38,435 bases of DNA from a virus. The notes under the pieces were generated by a model that saw only the letters and a program-made list of their open reading frames with translations, made no database searches and was not told the DNA's origin. The DNA lies in IMG/VR virus record IMGVR_UViG_3300044612_000314, positions 1 through 38,435 of that record. The stretch is one strand, 5' to 3'. Of the stretch, positions 5,875 to 13,890 are shown one piece after another. Every line of letters starts with the position of its first letter. Position 1 is the first letter of the stretch. A program made the translations under genes and the position numbers.

Positions 5875-5902
5875 ATTATAGCACATCAGTGGAAATTGTC
5901 AA
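5875..5902 (-). promoter_or_regulatory. Sigma-70 promoter for the SSB gene
   Basis: TTGACA (5902-5897) and TATAAT (5880-5875), 16 bp apart, with TGC before the -10 (extended -10). The site straddles the end of the 69-aa gene and the short gap before SSB. Predicted start near 5868, leaving a 24-base leader that carries AAAAGGAG. Both hexamers are perfect, in a mostly non-coding position. Confidence 0.8.
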
Positions 5903-6095: not shown

Positions 6096-7717
6096 GTTGT
6101 TCCTTTCTTGTATTCACCGTCTAGTGGGCAGCGAAGACCTAAGACTTCTCCTGCTTCCTTGATACTGCTTACTGCTAACTTACCTACTGCATCTGCATCT
6201 TCCTGACTGCATTCGATCTGCCACTCGTCATGAACATTAGCTACGAAGTGGGCATTAAGTTTCTGCTGCTGAATCTTACTGCTTAGTATGACCAAACCTT
6301 GCTTCATCACTATTGCACCAGCACTCTGCAGGAGTGTGTTAAGTGCTGCGTGTGCGGAACGAACTTGTAGTTTCCTACCGTCCAGACCTGGTAGCGTCCC
6401 TTGTTCTGATAAGCGTTCAACCTTTTCTCTAAGACTCTTGAGAGCAGGAGTGTTGCGAAGAAAATTACTGATGAGTTCCTGACCATCTTTTGCCGAACCA
6501 CCAACAATCTTCCCGATTTTGGCAGGCCCTGCACCGTAGAGTAAGGCATATATAAATGTTTTGGCTTGTGCCCTTGTTTCCAAACCAGCAGCGAGTTGGT
6601 TTTTCGTGTGTACATCGCCTTCAACGATTTCTTTTGCATAGCTTTCATCCTTCATATAGTGTGCCAACATCCGTAACTCAAGAGAACTAGCGTCTGCACC
6701 CACTAAGACATTACCATCATCTACTGTCCAGCAATCCCTACACTCGTGGCCCCAAGGACTGCTACTGCTGGGAACCTGAGCCATGTTCGGGCTGTGGTGT
6801 GTCATCCGTCCCGTGACTGCCCCATTGGTGATGACCTTACCGTGAACCCTGCGCTCGTCAGATACAAACTCAAGCCATGATTCAACCTGAGCCACCCGTT
6901 TCTGAATGAGTAAGTACTCTGCGATTCTCTTTGCCTCTGGAATATCAACTCCGTCAAGAACTGATTCGTCAACAATTACAGCTCCTTTCTCAGTGTGCTT
7001 AGTGGGTTTCCAGCCTTTCTCAATCAATCGCTTTGCTATCTGCTGGCGTGAACCAGGATTAAATACTTCAACATCATCCTTCAACTGCTTGCCTGTCTTC
7101 TCACTAAACCTTTGAGTGATAATAGGTGGGAAAATGGTTTGCAACTCCTCTTCAATGTCAGATAGCTTCCTCTTCCATTGTCCAAGCAGGCACTGGGCTT
7201 TCACAGTATCGAGTTTAAAGCCATGCTTCTCCTGCTTAGTAATGATAGCCTGCACCTTGTGCTCCAGTTCAATAGACTGCTCAGAGAATCCTTTCAGTTC
7301 CTGAAGCAAGTATAAATATAATTCACCACAAATGATTACATCCTCTTGACAGTACAGAATCATGTCATCTGTCAGGCCGCCCTCGAAATCGTCGTATTCC
7401 TTCTTGGTTCGGTTTACTAGCTTTGCGAGATTGGCTAGACTGTGTCCACCCTCTCTTGACGGGTTTGATAGTCTTGACATAACCAGTGTGTCCCGTACTT
7501 GGTTCAGTCTGATCGAAGTCTTCCAGACTCTGTTTAGGACGTGGCAGTCGAATGATATTCCGTTGTGAGCGATTATCAGCTTTGCCTGTTGAATAAACTT
7601 GTTGAAGTCTTGTGCGTTTGTCCATGTCTTTACTTCTTTAGTATCTAAATTATAGGTAGAGCAACACCAGATAGTGTTGTGTTTCAGGTTAGTCTCGATG
7701 TCAATTGCAACTCTCAT
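6077..7717 (-). CDS. Family A DNA polymerase with 3'-5' exonuclease, T7 gp5-like, 546 aa
   Basis: Replicative polymerase. Proofreading motifs: DIET at residues 6-9 (Exo I), HNGISFDCHVL (Exo II), and YCQEDVIIC (Exo III). Polymerase motifs: A, GADASSLELRMLAHYM; B, RAQAKTFIYALLYGAG; C, VANVHDEWQIE. The residue equivalent to E. coli Phe762 is Tyr, as in T7. At 546 residues it is much shorter than T7 gp5 (704), so the thioredoxin-binding loop and other insertions are probably reduced. It overlaps the methyltransferase gene by 17 bases. Confidence 0.96.
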   Translation of the reverse strand: MRVAIDIETNLKHNTIWCCSTYNLDTKEVKTWTNAQDFNKFIQQAKLIIAHNGISFDCHVLNRVWKTSIRLNQVRDTLVMSRLSNPSREGGHSLANLAKLVNRTKKEYDDFEGGLTDDMILYCQEDVIICGELYLYLLQELKGFSEQSIELEHKVQAIITKQEKHGFKLDTVKAQCLLGQWKRKLSDIEEELQTIFPPIITQRFSEKTGKQLKDDVEVFNPGSRQQIAKRLIEKGWKPTKHTEKGAVIVDESVLDGVDIPEAKRIAEYLLIQKRVAQVESWLEFVSDERRVHGKVITNGAVTGRMTHHSPNMAQVPSSSSPWGHECRDCWTVDDGNVLVGADASSLELRMLAHYMKDESYAKEIVEGDVHTKNQLAAGLETRAQAKTFIYALLYGAGPAKIGKIVGGSAKDGQELISNFLRNTPALKSLREKVERLSEQGTLPGLDGRKLQVRSAHAALNTLLQSAGAIVMKQGLVILSSKIQQQKLNAHFVANVHDEWQIECSQEDADAVGKLAVSSIKEAGEVLGLRCPLDGEYKKGTTWAQTH

Positions 7718-8330
7718 GTAGGTAGATCCCGTTTCCTATTGTGTTAAATATTTTATCATACTTTAGCAGTTTTAGCAAGTTATCGAAGTACTCTACCTTA
7801 CCGTGGTTCTCAACACAGATGACCTTTGGCCTACCTAACATCGTCTGTAGCACTGGGTAGTCCAGACCTTCTATGTCTATACACAATAAATCAGGGACAC
7901 CATACATATCAAAGAGACTATCAAGGGTTACAACTTTCACCTGTTTTACAGTTCTTATCTTAAACTCAGGATGGTTCTTGATAAACTCCAAGATAGTATC
8001 GTAATCAAAACTGTTCCTACCTGAGAAGTCATCGATCATAAAGAACTCTAACTCTCCAGCCACAACACCAACACCTACATTCAGTATCGTGTCTATCGGT
8101 CTATGATACTCAAAAGCCTTAATATGATTAGGGTTAGCCTCGACACAGACCCCTCTCCAGCCACGCTCATAGAGCAGGGCAGTGTTGCTGATGTTATAGG
8201 GATGGTGCGCCCCAACATCGAAGTATCTGCCGTTCTCGATACCTAACTTGTTAAAGACATTCAGTAGGATTAAGTCTTCCCCGAACTGCGAGTAAGTCCT
8301 GTCTCCGAATGCTTGATCAGGATGACTCAT
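7701..8330 (-). CDS. FkbM-family SAM-dependent methyltransferase, 209 aa
   Basis: Class I methyltransferase. The SAM-binding loop YFDVGAHHP is at 36-44, the acidic VEAN motif at 63-66, and the FkbM signature CIDIEGLDYPVL at 150-161. Family members O-methylate sugars and related small molecules. It sits between polymerase and primase-helicase, overlapping both by a few bases, so it is expressed with replication genes. Together with the GT9-like protein it suggests a glycan or nucleotide modification step. Substrate unknown. Confidence 0.85.
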   Translation of the reverse strand: MSHPDQAFGDRTYSQFGEDLILLNVFNKLGIENGRYFDVGAHHPYNISNTALLYERGWRGVCVEANPNHIKAFEYHRPIDTILNVGVGVVAGELEFFMIDDFSGRNSFDYDTILEFIKNHPEFKIRTVKQVKVVTLDSLFDMYGVPDLLCIDIEGLDYPVLQTMLGRPKVICVENHGKVEYFDNLLKLLKYDKIFNTIGNGIYLHESCN

Positions 8331-9913
8331 AGTTCCTCCACGATAGTCTCGCTCATGCGTCCAGTAATCCGATCATAGTAAAGACCACAGGCAGGGCCAG
8401 TCAGTCCACTGAATCGGTTCTTCAATACCCGTACCCTGGTTGTATGACGTTCTTTCAGGTCTTCAGCCTGTCCGTTACGCTCCAGACCCAGCACCATATC
8501 AGACAACTGACCAATCGATCCTGAGCCTCGTAGAGCAGACAGAGAGGTACTTGCACCTTCCTCGTGTCCTTTACCGTCAGGCCGTTTGAGATGCGAGACA
8601 CAGAACAGGGCAATACCAGTCTCTTGAACCACCATCCGCAGCTTGGTCATGATCTCGTCTAAGGCTTTTCGCTCGTCACCATTGTCTTGTGCAGATACCA
8701 CGATACTAACGTGATCAAGAAAAATATACTTGCAATCAAGGGCCTTAGCCATGAAACGAACCCGTGTGATAATGTTGTCGATTGCAGTAGAGCCAAAGTG
8801 ATCAAAAAGATACACACGACCAGTGCCCAGTGTAGCGTCAAAAGAATCTCGTAGTTCCTCATCTGTAACCTCAATATCAGGTAGGTGTAGTGGCTTGTTA
8901 GCGTGTAGGCTCATCAGGCTCTTAGCAGTGCGTTTGACAGACTCTTCCAAGAACAGCAGACCAATGTTGTCCTGAGTGTTATTGATGATATGATACACAA
9001 TCTCACGCAGAAACTGAGACTTTCCCAGCCCTGAGCCAGCCGTTATAGTCACCATCTCGCCTGTCCTGATGCCGTAGGTTAGGTCATTTAACCCACTGAA
9101 CGGGTAGTTTACATCAGACTTTTCTACTGGCTGGTTCACCAAATCCCACAATCCTGCACCATCAATGATTCCATCAGGAGTGAATCGTTCAGCCCTCCAC
9201 CACAGGTCTACGAAGTCTTTGTCTTTGTCCTCGTGGCAGTACTCGCAGGCATCTTTAATACCTGTGCGTCCCTTAAATATCTTGGCTTTAGTTCCAAGGA
9301 TTTCAGCCACCGCATTAGCCGCTCCTCTACCCGCATCATCGTTGTCAAAACAAATGACGATGTTCTCGAAGGAGTCGAGCCACTCATAATTCGCTTTAAT
9401 ATCTTGGACTGCGTTGCCTGCACCATTCCTAACAGAAACCACAGGATACTTAGAACCCAGCATCTGATATGCCGCCGCAGCATCGAACTCGCCCTCAGTA
9501 ATCGTGACATACTTACCTCCCTTATTAAACAGCTGCTGACCGAACAGTCCACCCTTGTTCCAGTCACCCTCGATGCTGAACCGCTTGTCTTCCATGTTCC
9601 TGCGCTTGAAAGCCACCAGCGTCTCTTCCTCGTTGTAGTACGGGAAATAGTAGTAGCCATCCTTGTTACCGATGCCATAGGTCTGACAGGTAGACCTAGT
9701 TAAGTTACGGTCTATAACCTGCTCATATGACAGATCATGCACATTAGTCACTTTAGTATTCACCTTAGTTAGTTTCTGCACTGGTTCCTCTGAGTTAGGA
9801 CTGCGTCTCGCTTTACCACAACTAAAGCACCTAGTGCCCCAATCATAGTAGGTCAATGCATCACTACTCCCACAATCAGGACAAGGCTGGTGTGCCTTTA
9901 ACTGTTCAGCCAC
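8327..9913 (-). CDS. Primase-helicase, T7 gp4-like, 528 aa
   Basis: Bifunctional replisome motor. A zinc-binding domain has Cys11, Cys14, Cys29 and Cys32. The TOPRIM primase core shows EGEFDAAAA at 140-148 and CFDNDDAGRG at 188-197. The RecA-type helicase has Walker A AGSGLGKS at 292-299, a Walker B-like IFLDHVS, then a VSHLKRP motif and a Gly/Ser-rich GASTSLSALRGS stretch. It unwinds DNA and lays down primers for the polymerase. The start is GTG with AAAGGAG seven bases upstream; the preceding small gene overlaps it by 8 bases. Confidence 0.96.
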   Translation of the reverse strand: MAEQLKAHQPCPDCGSSDALTYYDWGTRCFSCGKARRSPNSEEPVQKLTKVNTKVTNVHDLSYEQVIDRNLTRSTCQTYGIGNKDGYYYFPYYNEEETLVAFKRRNMEDKRFSIEGDWNKGGLFGQQLFNKGGKYVTITEGEFDAAAAYQMLGSKYPVVSVRNGAGNAVQDIKANYEWLDSFENIVICFDNDDAGRGAANAVAEILGTKAKIFKGRTGIKDACEYCHEDKDKDFVDLWWRAERFTPDGIIDGAGLWDLVNQPVEKSDVNYPFSGLNDLTYGIRTGEMVTITAGSGLGKSQFLREIVYHIINNTQDNIGLLFLEESVKRTAKSLMSLHANKPLHLPDIEVTDEELRDSFDATLGTGRVYLFDHFGSTAIDNIITRVRFMAKALDCKYIFLDHVSIVVSAQDNGDERKALDEIMTKLRMVVQETGIALFCVSHLKRPDGKGHEEGASTSLSALRGSGSIGQLSDMVLGLERNGQAEDLKERHTTRVRVLKNRFSGLTGPACGLYYDRITGRMSETIVEEL

Positions 9914-10076
9914 TTGTTACTCCTTTCATTTTTTCCTTCTCCATTAATTGTATCACATCTGCCATCACTTTTGCAACCCCTTGATCCAAGGACAGACGAG
10001 CCATAGCAGACACAGTGAACCAGTAGTGTGCTTCTTCTTGCATCTCAGCCATATATCGTTGTTCATCATCATTCAT
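9906..10076 (-). CDS. Small helical protein upstream of primase, 56 aa
   Basis: A short frame starting MNDDEQRYMAEMQEEAHYWF and ending KEKMKGVTSG. Its last bases carry the primase ribosome site (AAAGGAG) and its stop overlaps the primase GTG, so the two are translationally coupled. AAAGGAC lies upstream of its own ATG. Predicted all-helical, no known domain. It is the first gene after the 10190-10218 promoter and could be a primase-helicase regulator, by position only. Confidence 0.72.
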   Translation of the reverse strand: MNDDEQRYMAEMQEEAHYWFTVSAMARLSLDQGVAKVMADVIQLMEKEKMKGVTSG

Positions 10077-10201
10077 ACTAAATAGTCCTTTAAGTAGTTA
10101 ACTAGTTATTAAAGTAGTTATTAATAATAATTATCTTTTAAGTAATAAATAATAAATACTGTTTAGTTGCTTAATAATACTAAATAGTGATTTTAGCATA
10201 C
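10077..10201. other. AT-rich leader with repeats upstream of the replication genes
   Basis: Extremely AT-rich and non-coding. It holds a 12-mer direct repeat (ATACTAAATAGT at 10075-10086 and 10177-10188), AAGTAGTTA twice, 20 bases apart (10092-10100, 10112-10120), and a 15-mer TATTAATAATAATTA (10119-10133) that recurs at 13991-14005 in the late leader. It forms the 5' leader of transcripts from the promoter at 10190-10218. It could be a DNA-unwinding or protein-binding element, or simply a flexible leader. Confidence 0.7.
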
Positions 10202-10218
10202 TTAATAGTCCTTGTCAA
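10190..10218 (-). promoter_or_regulatory. Sigma-70 promoter for the replication operon
   Basis: Minus strand TTGACA (10218-10213), 17-bp spacer, TAAAAT (10195-10190; five of six), with TGC just before the -10 (extended). The -35 lies in the last codons of the 70-aa gene. Transcription from about 10183 would cover primase-helicase, methyltransferase and polymerase after a leader of about 107 bases. Confidence 0.78.
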
Positions 10219-10414
10219 GATCTAGTCCACAATGAGAATCGTTCTCATCTGAGTAGTCTTCCTCATGTGCTAAGTCAGACCTTTCAATGGTTTGTAAGTC
10301 TTCACTGACACTATTAAAACACCCGTTACACAGGTCAATAAACTCACCTGTATTAGCAGACTTCCTAGTAGCCTCATAATCACTGAGGTTTTTATTGCAA
10401 CTTAAGCATCTCAT
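10202..10414 (-). CDS. Zinc-ribbon-like protein with acidic tail, 70 aa
   Basis: Two CxxC knuckles, Cys3/Cys6 (MRCLSC) and Cys29/Cys32 (LCNGC), spaced as in a small zinc ribbon, followed by a strongly acidic tail (HEEDYSDENDSHCGLDLDKDY). A treble-clef or ribbon protein plus acidic tail could bind nucleic acid or host transcription proteins, though the partner is unknown. It overlaps the DUF1289 gene by 4 bases. Confidence 0.8.
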   Translation of the reverse strand: MRCLSCNKNLSDYEATRKSANTGEFIDLCNGCFNSVSEDLQTIERSDLAHEEDYSDENDSHCGLDLDKDY

Positions 10415-10605
10415 TTTCCGTCATCTCCATAAAGTTTGTTTAGTCTGTCCCTACATTGTACCATGATTCTGTCCTTCTCAAGGTCAGGTACTAGCGACCA
10501 GTCTAGGATCTCGTCTAAGCGCCTCCCGCACCCGTAGCATATACCCCACCCCTCGACCACCTGACAGATGCCCACACAGGGCGTTTTAGGGCTTCTCAGA
10601 GGCAT
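10411..10605 (-). CDS. DUF1289 family Cys-rich protein, 64 aa
   Basis: Matches the DUF1289 pattern: PCVGICQV, then GICYGCGRRLDEILDWS, with Cys10, Cys14, Cys23 and Cys26 as likely metal ligands. The family is common in proteobacteria; its function is poorly defined and a metal or Fe-S site has been assumed. Its presence in a phage suggests capture from a host and possible use in takeover. It overlaps the coiled-coil gene upstream by 20 bases and the zinc-ribbon gene downstream by 4. Confidence 0.82.
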   Translation of the reverse strand: MPLRSPKTPCVGICQVVEGWGICYGCGRRLDEILDWSLVPDLEKDRIMVQCRDRLNKLYGDDGK

Positions 10606-10780
10606 TATTTTTCCTCTCGTTGATCAGTTCAAAGTTTAACTTGGTGAGTAGCTCGTTAGTGTTCCTGAGTTCCTCCTCCAGTCTCTCTGTCCTAGCCCTA
10701 AGCATAAAGTTCTCACGCTCCAGTTCCGACACCATGTCGGGCAGTTCCACCTCATAAGGCACACCTGAAACTTTCACCAT
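10586..10780 (-). CDS. Coiled-coil protein, 64 aa
   Basis: After a short N-terminus (MVKVSGVPYEVELPDMV) the protein is a continuous heptad-like helix rich in Glu, Leu and Arg (ERENFMLRARTERLEEEL and on), ending in a polar tail. It probably forms dimers or binds another helix. GGGAGG lies 7-12 bases before its ATG, inside the 24-aa ORF. No enzymatic motif. Confidence 0.72.
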   Translation of the reverse strand: MVKVSGVPYEVELPDMVSELERENFMLRARTERLEEELRNTNELLTKLNFELINERKNNASEKP

Positions 10781-10855
10781 TTATTTGTCCTCCCAATATG
10801 ACCGAAGAAAGCCGAAGATAATAGAAAATAGCATCAATAGTAAGAAGTTAGTCAC
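10781..10855 (-). CDS. Membrane microprotein, 24 aa
   Basis: GTG start overlapping the upstream stop (GTGA). One hydrophobic segment, TNFLLLMLFSIIFGFL, followed by a charged end RSYWEDK. Its stop directly abuts the next ATG, and its last codons carry that gene's GGGAGG. It is either a genuine single-pass microprotein or a coupling ORF. The intact hydrophobic span favours the former. Confidence 0.5.
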   Translation of the reverse strand: MTNFLLLMLFSIIFGFLRSYWEDK

Positions 10856-10998
10856 TTTGAAGCCATCCAATAAAGTCCCACATTAGAGAACGCATATCCC
10901 GCATACACCACCAGCATAGGTAGGTTACCCTTGAACCCTTGCTCTCCTGCAATATAGGCGTATATGCACCCCGTCACTATAATGAGCCACGCAGACAT
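10852..10998 (-). CDS. Two-span membrane microprotein, 48 aa
   Basis: Begins MSAWLIIVTGCIYAYIAGEQ and ends YAFSNVGLYWMASK, giving two hydrophobic helices joined by a short polar turn (GEQGFKGN). The ATG overlaps the preceding stop (TAATG). No holin-type partner is adjacent and the true lysis genes are in the other arm, so this is more likely an early protein that acts on host membrane proteins. Function unknown. Confidence 0.65.
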   Translation of the reverse strand: MSAWLIIVTGCIYAYIAGEQGFKGNLPMLVVYAGYAFSNVGLYWMASK

Positions 10999-11270
10999 TA
11001 GAAGTCCCTCGGCTTATAGTTCTTAGCCTTCTCGATCAATGCCTTACTATGCAGACCGATTAAGAAATCCAAGTCCTTAAACACAGCATCGAGGCTAGTC
11101 TTAGTCCTAGCGTGCATCATATGATAGAGGATATACAATTCGTCTGTCTTCATATCGTCTATCACTTCCTGCAGTTCTGACACCTTATCCTCTAAAGCCT
11201 CTACTGCGCTGTAATCGATAGTGTTCTGATCCGCATCGTTCCAGTCATCATAGTTATATTCATTCATCAT
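10998..11270 (-). CDS. Hypothetical protein, 90 aa
   Basis: The acidic N-terminus (MMNEYNYDDWNDADQNTIDY) is followed by a coiled-coil-like helix (VEALEDKVSELQEVIDDMK) and a helical C-terminal half ending NYKPRDF. No recognised family. It overlaps the upstream 56-aa gene by 11 bases. It could be a dimeric regulator or adaptor. Confidence 0.72.
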   Translation of the reverse strand: MMNEYNYDDWNDADQNTIDYSAVEALEDKVSELQEVIDDMKTDELYILYHMMHARTKTSLDAVFKDLDFLIGLHSKALIEKAKNYKPRDF

Positions 11271-11430
11271 GTTCTAACCCTTCCTTGTTAAGTTCTATTG
11301 CAATGACTAACTCCTCGGCAAGTGTACGCCTACGCTCTACTAATACACCTGCAAAGTACCCTAGCCCGTAATGATCGAGGGCTTCCAATTCCATGACTAA
11401 CTCGCTAGCGTGTAGATCAATATTTTTCAT
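11260..11430 (-). CDS. Hypothetical helical protein, 56 aa
   Basis: Starts MKNIDLHASELVMELEALDH and ends IELNKEGLEHDE, with a central VLVERRRTLAEELV helix. Start and stop are both coupled to neighbours (ATGA overlap upstream, 11-base overlap downstream), which strongly supports expression. No domain recognised. Confidence 0.68.
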   Translation of the reverse strand: MKNIDLHASELVMELEALDHYGLGYFAGVLVERRRTLAEELVIAIELNKEGLEHDE

Positions 11431-11591
11431 GCTGTCTGATCCTCTCCTGTAATAATTTTATAATGACAACTGCTTGCATCAAATGCAGTCTGAATTGTGC
11501 CCAATGAATCAGCAAGATCTTGTGTTATCAAGAGAGCATCCTCGCTATTTGGATCTATTCCATCAAATTCTAAGACAATTTCAATCTTCAT
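11427..11591 (-). CDS. Hypothetical protein, 54 aa
   Basis: Short protein with an N-terminal strand (MKIEIVLEFDGIDPNSED), a helix (ALLITQDLADSLGTIQTAF) and an ending CHYKIITGEDQTA. It looks like a compact alpha/beta fold. Its start shares ATGA with the 22-aa ORF and its stop shares ATGA with the 56-aa gene. Function unknown. Confidence 0.66.
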   Translation of the reverse strand: MKIEIVLEFDGIDPNSEDALLITQDLADSLGTIQTAFDASSCHYKIITGEDQTA

Positions 11592-11656
11592 GACATAACC
11601 CCTATCAGTAAAAAGAAAATAAACAATACCATTAAAGCCTTCAGATTGTCAATCAT
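11588..11656 (-). CDS. Single-pass membrane microprotein, 22 aa
   Basis: Encodes MIDNLK followed by ALMVLFIFFLLIGVMS, a complete hydrophobic helix. It is linked by ATGA overlaps at both ends, with the peptidase stop and with the next start. Very short, so existence as a product is uncertain, but a random frame this short would rarely encode a clean transmembrane helix. Confidence 0.48.
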   Translation of the reverse strand: MIDNLKALMVLFIFFLLIGVMS

Positions 11657-12030
11657 AGCGTGATGAATCCCTCAATCTTAGACTGGCCTCTAGTCATATT
11701 GCAATCATATAACCTACCGTCAACGACAGCCATTGCGTGATTGCGCGTATAGACGATAAAGCGCCCCTTAGAGTGGGTTTTAATGAATTGGGCTAGGGTA
11801 ACCTTAGACATTGCGGAGAATCGCTTAGAGGCCCGATTAAGTCCCTTAGAGGCCATTTCCAATTGAAAGGGACTAACCCCTTCTCCCTTGTCCCTACCCC
11901 AATTGAAGAGCAAATCCCATGCTTCGCGGTAGGATACCCCGCCTGCTATAGATAGCGAAGTGACACCACAATCTCGGGATTCGCCCTTAATGGTTCCTCT
12001 GATTCTTTTAAGATCAATATAAATTTTCAT
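11653..12030 (-). CDS. Papain-like/C39-like cysteine peptidase candidate, 125 aa
   Basis: The pattern resembles small papain-fold peptidases: Cys21 in RDCGVTSLSIA starting a helix, then His98 in NHAMAVVDGRLYD in a beta hairpin, with Asp109 the likely third residue. The intervening VTLAQFIKTHSKGRFIVY also fits the fold. It could cleave a host or phage protein or act as an inactive binder. No signal peptide, so cytoplasmic. The ribosome site is weak (AAGGGG). It lies in the early-type cluster downstream of GP88. Confidence 0.6.
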   Translation of the reverse strand: MKIYIDLKRIRGTIKGESRDCGVTSLSIAGGVSYREAWDLLFNWGRDKGEGVSPFQLEMASKGLNRASKRFSAMSKVTLAQFIKTHSKGRFIVYTRNHAMAVVDGRLYDCNMTRGQSKIEGFITL

Positions 12031-12040
12031 AATAAGCCCC

Positions 12041-12130
12041 TTAGTCTAAATCCCATGGTTTAAAAATCATGATAACACCGGCACAGCCCAGCAATAGTAC
12101 TGCAATACTTGCATATTCCCACATTGTCAT
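12041..12130 (-). CDS. Single-pass membrane microprotein, 29 aa
   Basis: Short N-terminus MTMWEYA, then a hydrophobic stretch SIAVLLLGCAGVIMIF, then KPWDLD. GGGG is upstream of both this ATG and the next. It sits alone between GP88 and the peptidase candidate. It is one of four hydrophobic microproteins in this cluster. Confidence 0.52.
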   Translation of the reverse strand: MTMWEYASIAVLLLGCAGVIMIFKPWDLD

Positions 12131-12131
12131 T

Positions 12132-12776
12132 TTAAGCCCCTTTGATAGATAGAATTTTAATAACCTTCGACATCTTTTTCCCGTGTGCTGGGTAAGATAC
12201 TAGCGGAACGTCTTTAGAATAGCAAGCGCGGCAACCATTGCACCTGCCCTCATGCTCATAAGCCCTACACAAAAACCCCTTAGCCTGAGAGGGATCAGGG
12301 ACAATGACTGAGCCATGCTCCGAAGTATATTCGCCCATGACGCTATCCGAGGAAAAACGAACCATGACATTAGGGAGAGACTGCATCTTATCCAGTACAG
12401 CCTGAAACTTGGCAAACTTCCGCATTCTAGTCGGTAGCCAATGCTTTACCCATGGTGTTTGTTCCATTACTGATAGGATCTTCTCCGCTAGTCCTAAAGA
12501 ATACATATCGCCCGAATCAAACCAGCGAAAGTATCGTTGAGACTCTAGAGCATTGATCATGCGCTCTTCCCAATCACTGGCTTTCCAATCCTCTTGATTC
12601 TCTAACCTTGGCGCTTTTACATTAGAGAAGCGATAATTGCCTGTGGTGGCGTAACAGCCTGAGCAAGCGGCTACTAGTTCGCCGTTATCGCCTATTGAAC
12701 CGGGACAGGTATCGAGGGCCTGAAGTGACCATGACAGAATACCGTCAAGTTTTGAAGTCTTTGAGAGTTTTAGCAT
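12132..12776 (-). CDS. GP88 family protein, 214 aa
   Basis: Strong resemblance to the GP88 (gene product 88) family known from phages and some bacteria: TCPGSIGDNGELVAACSGCY, NYRFSNVKAPRLEN, RYFRWFDSGDMYSLGLAEKI, TPWVKHWLPTRM and NVMVRFSSD. Cysteines cluster at 24, 38 and 41, and again at 170, 179, 182 and 185, as if two metal or Fe-S sites exist. Alternating strand-helix blocks suggest a barrel-like fold. Function is not established. I infer a possible metal-dependent enzyme. First large gene of the leftward arm, so probably early. Confidence 0.85.
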   Translation of the reverse strand: MLKLSKTSKLDGILSWSLQALDTCPGSIGDNGELVAACSGCYATTGNYRFSNVKAPRLENQEDWKASDWEERMINALESQRYFRWFDSGDMYSLGLAEKILSVMEQTPWVKHWLPTRMRKFAKFQAVLDKMQSLPNVMVRFSSDSVMGEYTSEHGSVIVPDPSQAKGFLCRAYEHEGRCNGCRACYSKDVPLVSYPAHGKKMSKVIKILSIKGA

Positions 12777-12802
12777 TTTAGATCCTTGTTAGTTTGCCTA
12801 AG

Positions 12803-12818
12803 ACTGTCTCTCGACAGT
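12803..12818. repeat. Short inverted repeat between two leftward genes
   Basis: ACTGTC (12803-12808), loop TCTC, GACAGT (12813-12818). It lies in the 65-base gap between the 75-aa gene and GP88. There is no long T-run on either strand, so an operator, attenuator or RNA-processing hairpin is more likely than a full terminator. Confidence 0.5.
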
Positions 12819-12841
12819 TTCGCCTATTTAAGGCTCGTCAG

Positions 12842-13069
12842 TTAGGCTTGAGCGATTGTCTCGGTTAGTTCAGTTAGGTTAGTTAGGGCATTCTGTTCTA
12901 GCCTAACAAAGGCAGATTTCTGCGACTCTGTTGAGGCTTTAGCAATCCTATCACAATAAAATTTCCTGATGCCAATCTCGGCACATTGAAGGATTGAATC
13001 GAGTTCTGCCTCATCGATCTCGAGGGTTATCGTGCGTGTCTGTGGGTTTAGTTTTGCTGTGGTTTTCAT
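12842..13069 (-). CDS. Hypothetical small protein, first gene of the left arm, 75 aa
   Basis: Starts MKTTAKLNPQTRTITLEID, then a long helix rich in Glu, Ala and Gln, and ends LTELTETIAQA. It has AAAGGAAA just before its ATG. One Cys pair (Cys29, Cys39) but no CxxC. It is the first gene read leftward from the central control region, so probably expressed earliest. Function unknown. Confidence 0.75.
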   Translation of the reverse strand: MKTTAKLNPQTRTITLEIDEAELDSILQCAEIGIRKFYCDRIAKASTESQKSAFVRLEQNALTNLTELTETIAQA

Positions 13070-13646: not shown

Positions 13647-13820
13647 TGATGAGAAGGCAAAATAGACCCTATATATGGGCTAAATTGTCTATAAAATTAC
13701 TAGATGTGGTAGTGCTATAAAGTCCTTATAAATCAATAACTTACATCTGTGCAGTACACCCTTGCAGATCTTAACTAAAAAGGACAGTGCTTATTCCTTC
13801 GTAATACCCAGAAGAGACGC

Positions 13821-13842
13821 CCCTCTTAAGCCCTAAAGAGGG
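13821..13842. repeat. Inverted repeat upstream of the main late promoter
   Basis: CCCTCTT (13821-13827), loop AAGCCCTA, AAGAGGG (13836-13842): a perfect 7-bp stem 19 bases before the -35. No T-run follows on either strand, so it is more likely an operator or insulating hairpin than a terminator. Confidence 0.5.
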
Positions 13843-13861
13843 ACAGAACAGTAGAAAAGAC

Positions 13862-13890
13862 TTGACAAATCTCTAAAAATATGCTATAAT
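13862..13890 (+). promoter_or_regulatory. Perfect sigma-70 promoter for the rightward arm
   Basis: TTGACA (13862-13867), 17-bp spacer, TATAAT (13885-13890), with TGC before the -10 (extended). Predicted start about 13897, giving a leader of about 184 bases before the terminase small subunit gene. Lies in non-coding DNA. It is the strongest candidate for driving packaging and portal genes with host RNA polymerase. Confidence 0.88.

Follow-up and report, generated by a model that had tools for sequence, protein, structure and literature searches.

Which kind of system stands at the head of the leftward arm of IMGVR_UViG_3300044612_000314? This record represents an uncultivated phage with two divergent arms, and the window analysed here is the entire record (38,435 bases). 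Its leftward arm opens with a 3.2-kb stretch (9906-13069) that holds 15 leftward candidate genes, including one for a GP88 protein, one for a small papain-like peptidase candidate (pep), one for a DUF1289 protein and several for microproteins. A sequence-only reading of this DNA had grouped the putative protease, the metal proteins and the membrane peptides into a joint host-takeover module. The cluster is real, dense and mostly conserved; the evidence does not support a single unknown system but does support an exchange zone at an operon head. The reading preferred here is the head of a replication-side leftward operon, largely constant in the half near the primase and exchanged in the other, with GP88 and pep as independent passengers; taken whole, with its mechanism included, it has about an even chance of being right. 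Its direct support comes from selection on 13 of the 15 genes, the split between constant and exchanged genes, invariant residues and predicted folds, while "host takeover" and "early" are plausible labels drawn solely from position.

A dense, probable operon head with a largely constant and an exchanged half

The cluster starts about 1.0 kb from the first rightward open reading frame (ORF), the distance between that ORF and orf75, and ends at the primase-helicase gene, its downstream anchor (8327..9913, minus strand, as are all cluster genes; phrog_239, 2.3e-183). Neighbouring genes overlap by 1, 4, 8, 11 or 20 bases at 9 of the 15 junctions, the last of which is with the primase. Several of these overlaps are ATGA, GTGA or TAATG, and the coding share of 9906-12776 is 98%. 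The short genes are thus tightly packed and would probably be translationally coupled. The dense leftward cluster and its junctions, mostly overlapping by 1-20 bases, are as the sequence-only reading had described them, with small corrections: its 14 genes become 15, and its microproteins of 22, 24, 29 and 48 residues, all recovered, are joined by a weaker fifth, a second 22-mer. Its placement of the cluster at the head of the leftward arm also holds; this is the replication arm, from which the packaging arm diverges. The proteins scanned on the rightward arm include the terminase large subunit (TerL), portal, scaffold, major head and tail proteins, and those on the leftward arm the primase-helicase, a DNA polymerase, an exonuclease and a protein resembling single-stranded DNA-binding protein.

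Comparison with the 21 loci of a related clade, not all of them complete, shows which of the small genes are real. The ratio of nonsynonymous to synonymous changes (pN/pS), computed for each gene against between 4 and 10 near relatives, indicates purifying selection in all 13 testable small genes (0.06-0.50). A frame-shifted control on three genes, for the window against locus L002 only, gives 1.5-3.4. Thirteen of the 15 genes are therefore real and under selection, and phage genes of 22-48 residues, easily missed in annotation, can evidently be genuine. The absence of small ORFs from relatives, which the sequence-only reading had named as the result that would overturn it, applies to two. The 75-residue orf75, the first ORF of the leftward arm (12842..13069), has a relative in none of the 21 clade loci, and the 54-residue o54 (11427..11591) in one (L004, 39% identity).

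The half of the cluster ahead of the primase is largely constant. Reading towards the primase, it comprises o90 (10998..11270; 90 residues, 17/21 clade loci, pN/pS 0.15), the first gene of the block; m48 (10852..10998; a hydrophobic microprotein of 48 residues, 19/21, 0.44); m24 (10781..10855; hydrophobic, 24 residues, 17/21, 0.46), which overlaps m48 by GTGA and has a GTG start at 10855 that agrees with the starts of its homologues; and cc64 (10586..10780; 64 residues, coiled-coil-like, leader MVKVSGVPYEV, 19/21, 0.13). It continues with the 64-residue DUF1289 protein with its four-Cys cluster (10411..10605; 18/21, 0.50), the zinc-ribbon-like zn70 (10202..10414; 70 residues, 20/21, 0.36; a DUF7685 match at 0.0011 lies below the cut-off) and o56b (9906..10076; 56 residues, 20/21, 0.33), which overlaps the primase start. 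The DUF1289 assignment of the sequence-only reading is secure (PF06945, 3.4e-15, 56.1 bits against a cut-off of 27). Gene maps of five relatives show the same constant block ahead of the primase, with variable content further upstream; m24 in L268 and L002 and o56b in L006, missing from the gene-map listing, were found by search. Three points weigh against so simple a picture: o90, m24 and DUF1289 have the gaps given above, single genes of the block are absent from distant clade members, and selection on DUF1289 and m24 is weaker, with pN/pS near 0.5.

The proximal zone, made up of orf75, GP88, m29a, pep, m22a, o54 and o56, is swapped among close relatives. GP88 (12132..12776; 214 residues, pN/pS 0.09) occurs in 14 of the 21 clade loci and pep (11653..12030; 125 residues, 0.06) in 10. 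The 29-residue hydrophobic microprotein m29a (12041..12130; conserved C-terminal KPW) is present in 14/21 (0.07) and the 56-residue o56 (11260..11430) in 7/21 (0.11). The 22-residue hydrophobic m22a (11588..11656; 0.26), which overlaps pep by ATGA, is confined to 5/21, namely the loci that carry a near-identical pep. GP88 went undetected in the stretch covered in L255 and L268, where primases are 96-97% identical to that of the window and m29a is present. Loci L007 and L009 have GP88 and no detected peptidase. In L006 and L268 the peptidase is another member of the pep family, placed immediately upstream of GP88 in the case of L006. Primase and GP88 also disagree in their degree of divergence: some phages whose primases are only 38-40% identical to that of the window have a GP88 67-69% identical to its own, among them L015 and L019 (primases 38%), and in L263-L266 (primases 71-80%) and L258 (84%) GP88 is only 32-33% identical; L264 pairs this 33%-type GP88 with yet another peptidase. 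GP88 thus moves between phages. Because relatives swap GP88 and pep separately, the two are probably individual tools and not one joint machine.

For a phage operon, an exchange zone at its head is a familiar arrangement. In the organisation proposed here, the half of the cluster beside the divergent promoter region would be such a zone for accessory genes, with a largely constant half beside the primase, and it would mark a place where phages of this kind keep interchangeable accessory genes.

Co-occurrence of GP88 and pep

If GP88, pep, the metal proteins and the membrane microproteins acted together, GP88 and pep should recur together in other phages, and the sequence-only reading had proposed conserved co-occurrence of GP88 with a papain-like gene as a check. 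This check was carried out in samples anchored on each of three genes. Among 80 GP88-anchored loci, many with short flanks, pep is present in 12, and a sample around HTVC027P-type GP88 has it in 0 of 80. The pep-anchored sample contains GP88 in 30 of 75 loci, repeated contigs included. Once these are collapsed and at least 2 kb of upstream sequence is demanded, GP88 lies within 5 kb in 20 of 55 loci, always on the same strand (20/20) and upstream in 18, which speaks for a joint module. The weight of this sample is reduced by its alignment, to which GP88 loci had contributed.

The primase-anchored sample is the least biased. In its 42 loci (of 80) with at least 3 kb upstream, 6 have both genes, 9 GP88 only, 4 pep only and 23 neither (odds ratio 3.8, Fisher p 0.13); with at least 4.5 kb upstream the counts are 5, 6, 3 and 12 (p 0.22). 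There is thus no significant pairing, and the odds ratio leaves a weak tendency. Within the 55 pep-anchored loci, GP88 is found in 15 of the 19 with this primase type versus 5 of the 36 without it, so the link between GP88 and pep follows phage lineage. The pairing amounts to no more than a lineage-level tendency, in which GP88 followed by pep recurs as the order.

A joint module is therefore rejected as the best reading across the GP88-, pep- and primase-anchored samples and is unlikely. Besides the primase-anchored counts, GP88 or pep is missing in close relatives, and the pep genes belong to differing subfamilies and lie on either side of GP88. One further observation favours cooperation within the cluster: cc64 and DUF1289 form one protein in L264 and L265, and the cc64 leader is joined to DUF1289 in L263, which hints that these two work together. 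Of the sequence-only interpretation, the reality of 13 of the 15 genes and their place at the head of the leftward arm remain, and the joint module does not.

Neighbours were clustered across 188 distinct GP88 loci, of which 72 came from early GP88/pep scans and others were fetched via pep and primase; the recurring genes are zn70 (56 loci), one for an o56b-like protein (40), the primase (37) and pep (36). No conserved large same-strand partner of GP88 besides the primase is seen over these loci. On the opposite strand, the common neighbours are TerL (50) and a small ORF without a PHROG match (52). The divergent placement recurs: of the 50 distinct GP88 loci with a homologue of one example TerL protein, which matches the terminase large subunit, within 3 kb, all 50 have that homologue on the opposite strand. 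As a general partner of GP88, m29a is rejected: outside the clade it has only one weak match, and in L255 and L268 it stands without GP88.

GP88 and pep as separate candidate proteins

GP88 matches PF17338 with 100.8 bits against a cut-off of 24.4 (1.4e-28) and carries two cysteine sets, C24-X13-C38-X2-C41 and C170-X8-C179-X2-C182-X2-C185. None of the seven cysteines varies among 26 sequences, made up of that of the window and others 67-99% identical to it. Among the 74 diverse GP88 sequences chosen from fetched loci for the folding alignment, CX13CX2C and the C-terminal set each occur in 74, the latter with one common span in 71. The GP88 protein with two Cys clusters of the sequence-only reading is thus borne out.

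The structural comparisons would fit a small SAM (S-adenosylmethionine)-binding barrel. The AlphaFold2 model of GP88 has a mean predicted local distance difference test score (pLDDT) of 90.1 and a predicted template modelling score of 0.88. When it was compared by VIA-align with Foldseek's best 1000 PDB chains, the first 17 rows, at Z 6.4 to 4.7, were chains titled as, or otherwise assigned to, radical-SAM enzymes (SuiB, EpeE, viperin-like, LAM, ChlB, SkfB, BtrN, NifB), and the next row was unrelated, at 4.5. SuiB aligns over 151 residues at 5.7 Å and EpeE over 148 at 4.7 Å; as best structural matches, these enzymes resemble GP88 further in having three cysteines near the first strands. The second cysteine set recalls radical-SAM enzymes with auxiliary clusters. 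Conserved GP88 motifs fall at predicted strands (FRW-D--GD, HW-PT and R-S). The motif (F/H)RW(F/H)D(S/A)GD is presumably comparable to the GGE region of the superfamily and R.S to its fourth-strand motif, and these strand-end motifs may be counterparts of SAM-binding positions.

Several results weigh against this assignment. For the partial (beta/alpha) barrel of radical-SAM enzymes, the top Z of 6.4 is below 8, the threshold of the tool for a clear match. In Foldseek against the PDB, no match reaches 0.001; the best (E 0.051) is a hexosaminidase and SkfB comes second. GP88 has no PF04055 match at E 1, and its CX13CX2C spacing differs from the canonical CX3CX2C motif of radical-SAM enzymes, which it lacks. 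An hhalign comparison of GP88 or DUF5131 with 28 canonical radical-SAM sequences (from 30 loci) gives probabilities of at most 1% (GP88 0.5%), and by profile there is no similarity. Since both motif and profile tests failed, GP88 is described here as radical-SAM-like on the strength of its model and is not filed as a member of the superfamily. A PDB sequence search with GP88 gives chance-level matches only. There is precedent for unusual spacing in QueE, described as a minimal-core radical-SAM enzyme with CX14CX2C (PMC4389238). QueE resembles GP88 in cysteine spacing only and is absent from the structural rows.

Comparison with other uncharacterised families extends the picture. Against the viral models of BFVD, the GP88 model has 16 matches at E of 0.001 or lower. 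Those with a name are GP88 proteins (among them the ones from a Nitrosopumilus spindle-shaped virus and from Halogranum tailed virus 1), a single DUF7227 and a single Gp37/Gp68-like protein; several lower, non-significant rows are named radical-SAM or Fe-S phage proteins. In hhalign, GP88 and DUF5131 (Gp37/Gp68, PF07505; 15 of 22 loci in the alignment) match with P 5e-5 and a probability of 67%, versus at most 1% each for radical SAM, the primase and a TIM-barrel control. One DUF5131 protein, in L335, is matched by the GP88 model at 1.3e-7, over the cut-off. The two families share C..CYA, and their strand motifs read in a similar order; unlike GP88, DUF5131 has CX6CX2C spacing in 14 of 15 aligned sequences and no comparable C-terminal cysteine set. 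The Pfam names of PF17338 and PF07505 give no function. The new element is thus a predicted radical-SAM-like build for GP88 and, with it, probably for DUF5131.

Alternatively, GP88 could be a non-enzyme that has a structural role or binds nucleic acids, its cysteines coordinating zinc or a cluster without catalytic function. Its small size and the missing canonical motif and profile match agree with such a role, to which we give perhaps one chance in four; a SAM-binding barrel accounts better for the strand motifs and for a structural list consistently headed by radical-SAM enzymes. Under the preferred reading, GP88 would bind a [4Fe-4S] cluster via C24, C38 and C41 and a second cluster via C170, C179, C182 and C185, would use SAM in a small radical-SAM-like barrel and would alter a host or phage molecule early in infection. 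Should GP88 prove to be a radical enzyme, biochemical tests would open up for a whole group of "hypothetical" genes located at phage operon heads.

The GP88 family, whose name is no more than a gene number, is widespread, with at least 600 relatives in viral contigs and named members in archaeal viruses. In one environmental phage GP88 adjoins a gene named antirestriction protein, and in several other phages it lies near the end of the deposited record, although record ends can be arbitrary. This placement fits a role against host defences and does not show one. No paper treating PF17338 was found by title or abstract start, in a collection that lacks most subscription papers and preprints. 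Among the papers listed for the term GP88, most concern progranulin, and in a few phage papers gp88 simply numbers a gene. Cabrinians gp88 is termed an endonuclease (PMC4742673), and ICP1 Gp88 is an origin-directed nuclease, described there with no mention of PF17338 or radical SAM (PMC8263062). Radical-SAM annotation in phages is itself already in print (PMC10783043).

The second passenger, pep, matches phrog_3754 (2.3e-12), and its residues C21, H98 and D109, the candidate catalytic Cys-His-Asp, are invariant in all 56 sequences of its folding alignment. The model (mean pLDDT 88.2) aligns in VIA-align with ComA (Z 8.7, 3.3 Å over 106 residues) and with the double-glycine protease 6mpz (Z 8.7); the 50 matches listed also include PeiR, staphopain and, lower, Josephin-type proteins, many of them papain-like. 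PCAT1 is the top Foldseek match (E 0.012, probability 0.99). Pep thus appears, by its model, to have a papain-like fold of the C39 type, and the papain-like peptidase candidate of the sequence-only reading gains from both the invariant residues and the predicted fold. Points to the contrary are that Foldseek returns nothing from the PDB at E 0.001, that pep has no Pfam match at E 1, hence none to C39, and that one of the proteins near it in fold is papain-like yet lacks the catalytic cysteine. A PDB sequence search with pep returned nothing. Relatives at E 0.01 come from 163 phage records, 148 of them Pseudomonas phages, and 3 of the 40 rows listed, from two Pseudomonas phages, are annotated "peptidase".

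The C39 domains of ComA and PCAT1, like staphopain, share with pep the predicted fold and the invariant Cys, His and Asp. PCAT proteins differ in being fused to an ABC transporter, whereas pep is a stand-alone ORF of 125 residues. Pep would act separately, as a small cysteine protease of C39-type fold, on a host or defence protein, and the microproteins would reside in the membrane.

These folds raise the question of a phage pathway resembling those for ribosomally synthesized and post-translationally modified peptides (RiPPs), with GP88 as maturase, pep as C39 leader peptidase and a neighbouring microprotein as precursor. The closest folds to GP88 include the RiPP maturases SuiB, EpeE, ChlB and SkfB, those of pep include PCAT/C39 leader peptidases, and ORFs of 22-29 residues lie adjacent. 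C39 domains are described as cleaving leaders after GG, GA or GS (PMC10885120). None of the five microproteins contains such a site; they look like membrane peptides, the cluster ORFs include no exporter, and GP88 and pep are not consistently paired. This pathway is very unlikely, the least probable of the alternatives considered. Scarcely better are the odds of a broader idea, a virus-borne minimal radical-SAM-like family (CX13CX2C plus a second cluster, in bacterial and archaeal viruses) that phages exchange at the head of the replication arm and that perhaps modifies small peptides or host proteins, which a neighbouring free C39-type protease then cuts. We know of no description of such a peptide-modifying takeover pathway.

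Other cluster members and genome context

Hydropathy is clearly hydrophobic for m29a, m22a and m24, moderate for m48 and weak for m22b, the second 22-residue microprotein (10131..10199; pN/pS 0.44), which sits at this position in 9 of the 21 clade loci and has two further weak matches located elsewhere (L256 and L266). At least two alleles of m48, about 44% identical, are swapped among otherwise close phages (L004-L007, L255), and more distant loci carry a related family, which some of them have downstream of the primase. The leader MV(K/R)VSGVPYEV (window 10747-10780) precedes cc64 in the window, DUF1289 in L263 and the cc64-DUF1289 protein in L264 and L265. In L266 the same leader stands before a ThyX-type thymidylate synthase (PF02511, 2.6e-42), so that one N-terminus is attached to unrelated bodies. 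Primases of this type often have a zn70-family gene nearby, as in 32 of the 42 primase-anchored loci.

PADLOC, which covers known or candidate families of anti-phage defence proteins, gave no match at E 0.1 for ten proteins, nine of the 15 of the cluster plus the methyltransferase at 7701; NCBIfam, likewise for ten proteins, gave none above the curated cut-off. No mechanism for DUF1289 was found in the literature consulted, where E. coli YdhL (DUF1289) is listed among the hits of an overexpression screen for oxidant resistance (PMC8228696), and DUF1289 is named for a phage ORF (PMC8451122).

By gene content the phage appears to be of podovirus type. Its primase-helicase shows DNA-level similarity to SIO1, P12053L and Lentibacter phages; within the cobaviruses/Zobellviridae (SIO1, P12053L, MEP401/402) identity is 68-70% over about 220 bases. 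The two oppositely directed arms described for cobaviruses are a further likeness (PMC6775973). In Methylophilales phage MEP402, a Zobellviridae record, a zn70 homologue immediately precedes the primase, as in the window. MEP402 differs in the genes ahead of zn70, which include a glutamine amidotransferase, and a further difference is that the window encodes a TerL to which no named protein is close (12 listed rows at 27-48% identity). That result weighs against a firm placement of the phage in a family, and the label "Zobellviridae-like" is based on the primase and zn70 only. The pre-primase zone of MEP402 (L393, 1616-4128) encodes a hypothetical protein of 548 residues besides the putative glutamine amidotransferase, another kind of passenger.

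Elsewhere on the minus strand of the window lie a heptosyltransferase-like glycosyltransferase of family 9 (1625-2629) and an FkbM-type methyltransferase between primase and DNA polymerase (7701-8330). Five exact TTGACA-N16/18-TATAAT sites occur in the window, at 13862, 18034 and 30267 on the plus strand and at 5902 and 4814 on the minus strand. An exact site on the strand opposite the leftward arm is present in 15 of the 16 clade loci scanned, and that at 13862 is letter-identical over 29 bases in 11 of the 16. Upstream of the cluster the leftward arm has no exact site, the best being a 9/12 match at 13535-13506. The divergent region also contains a terminator-like stem (13818-13845, minus strand); of the 3 terminator-like sites seen, where 1.1 would be expected, two are the same stem.

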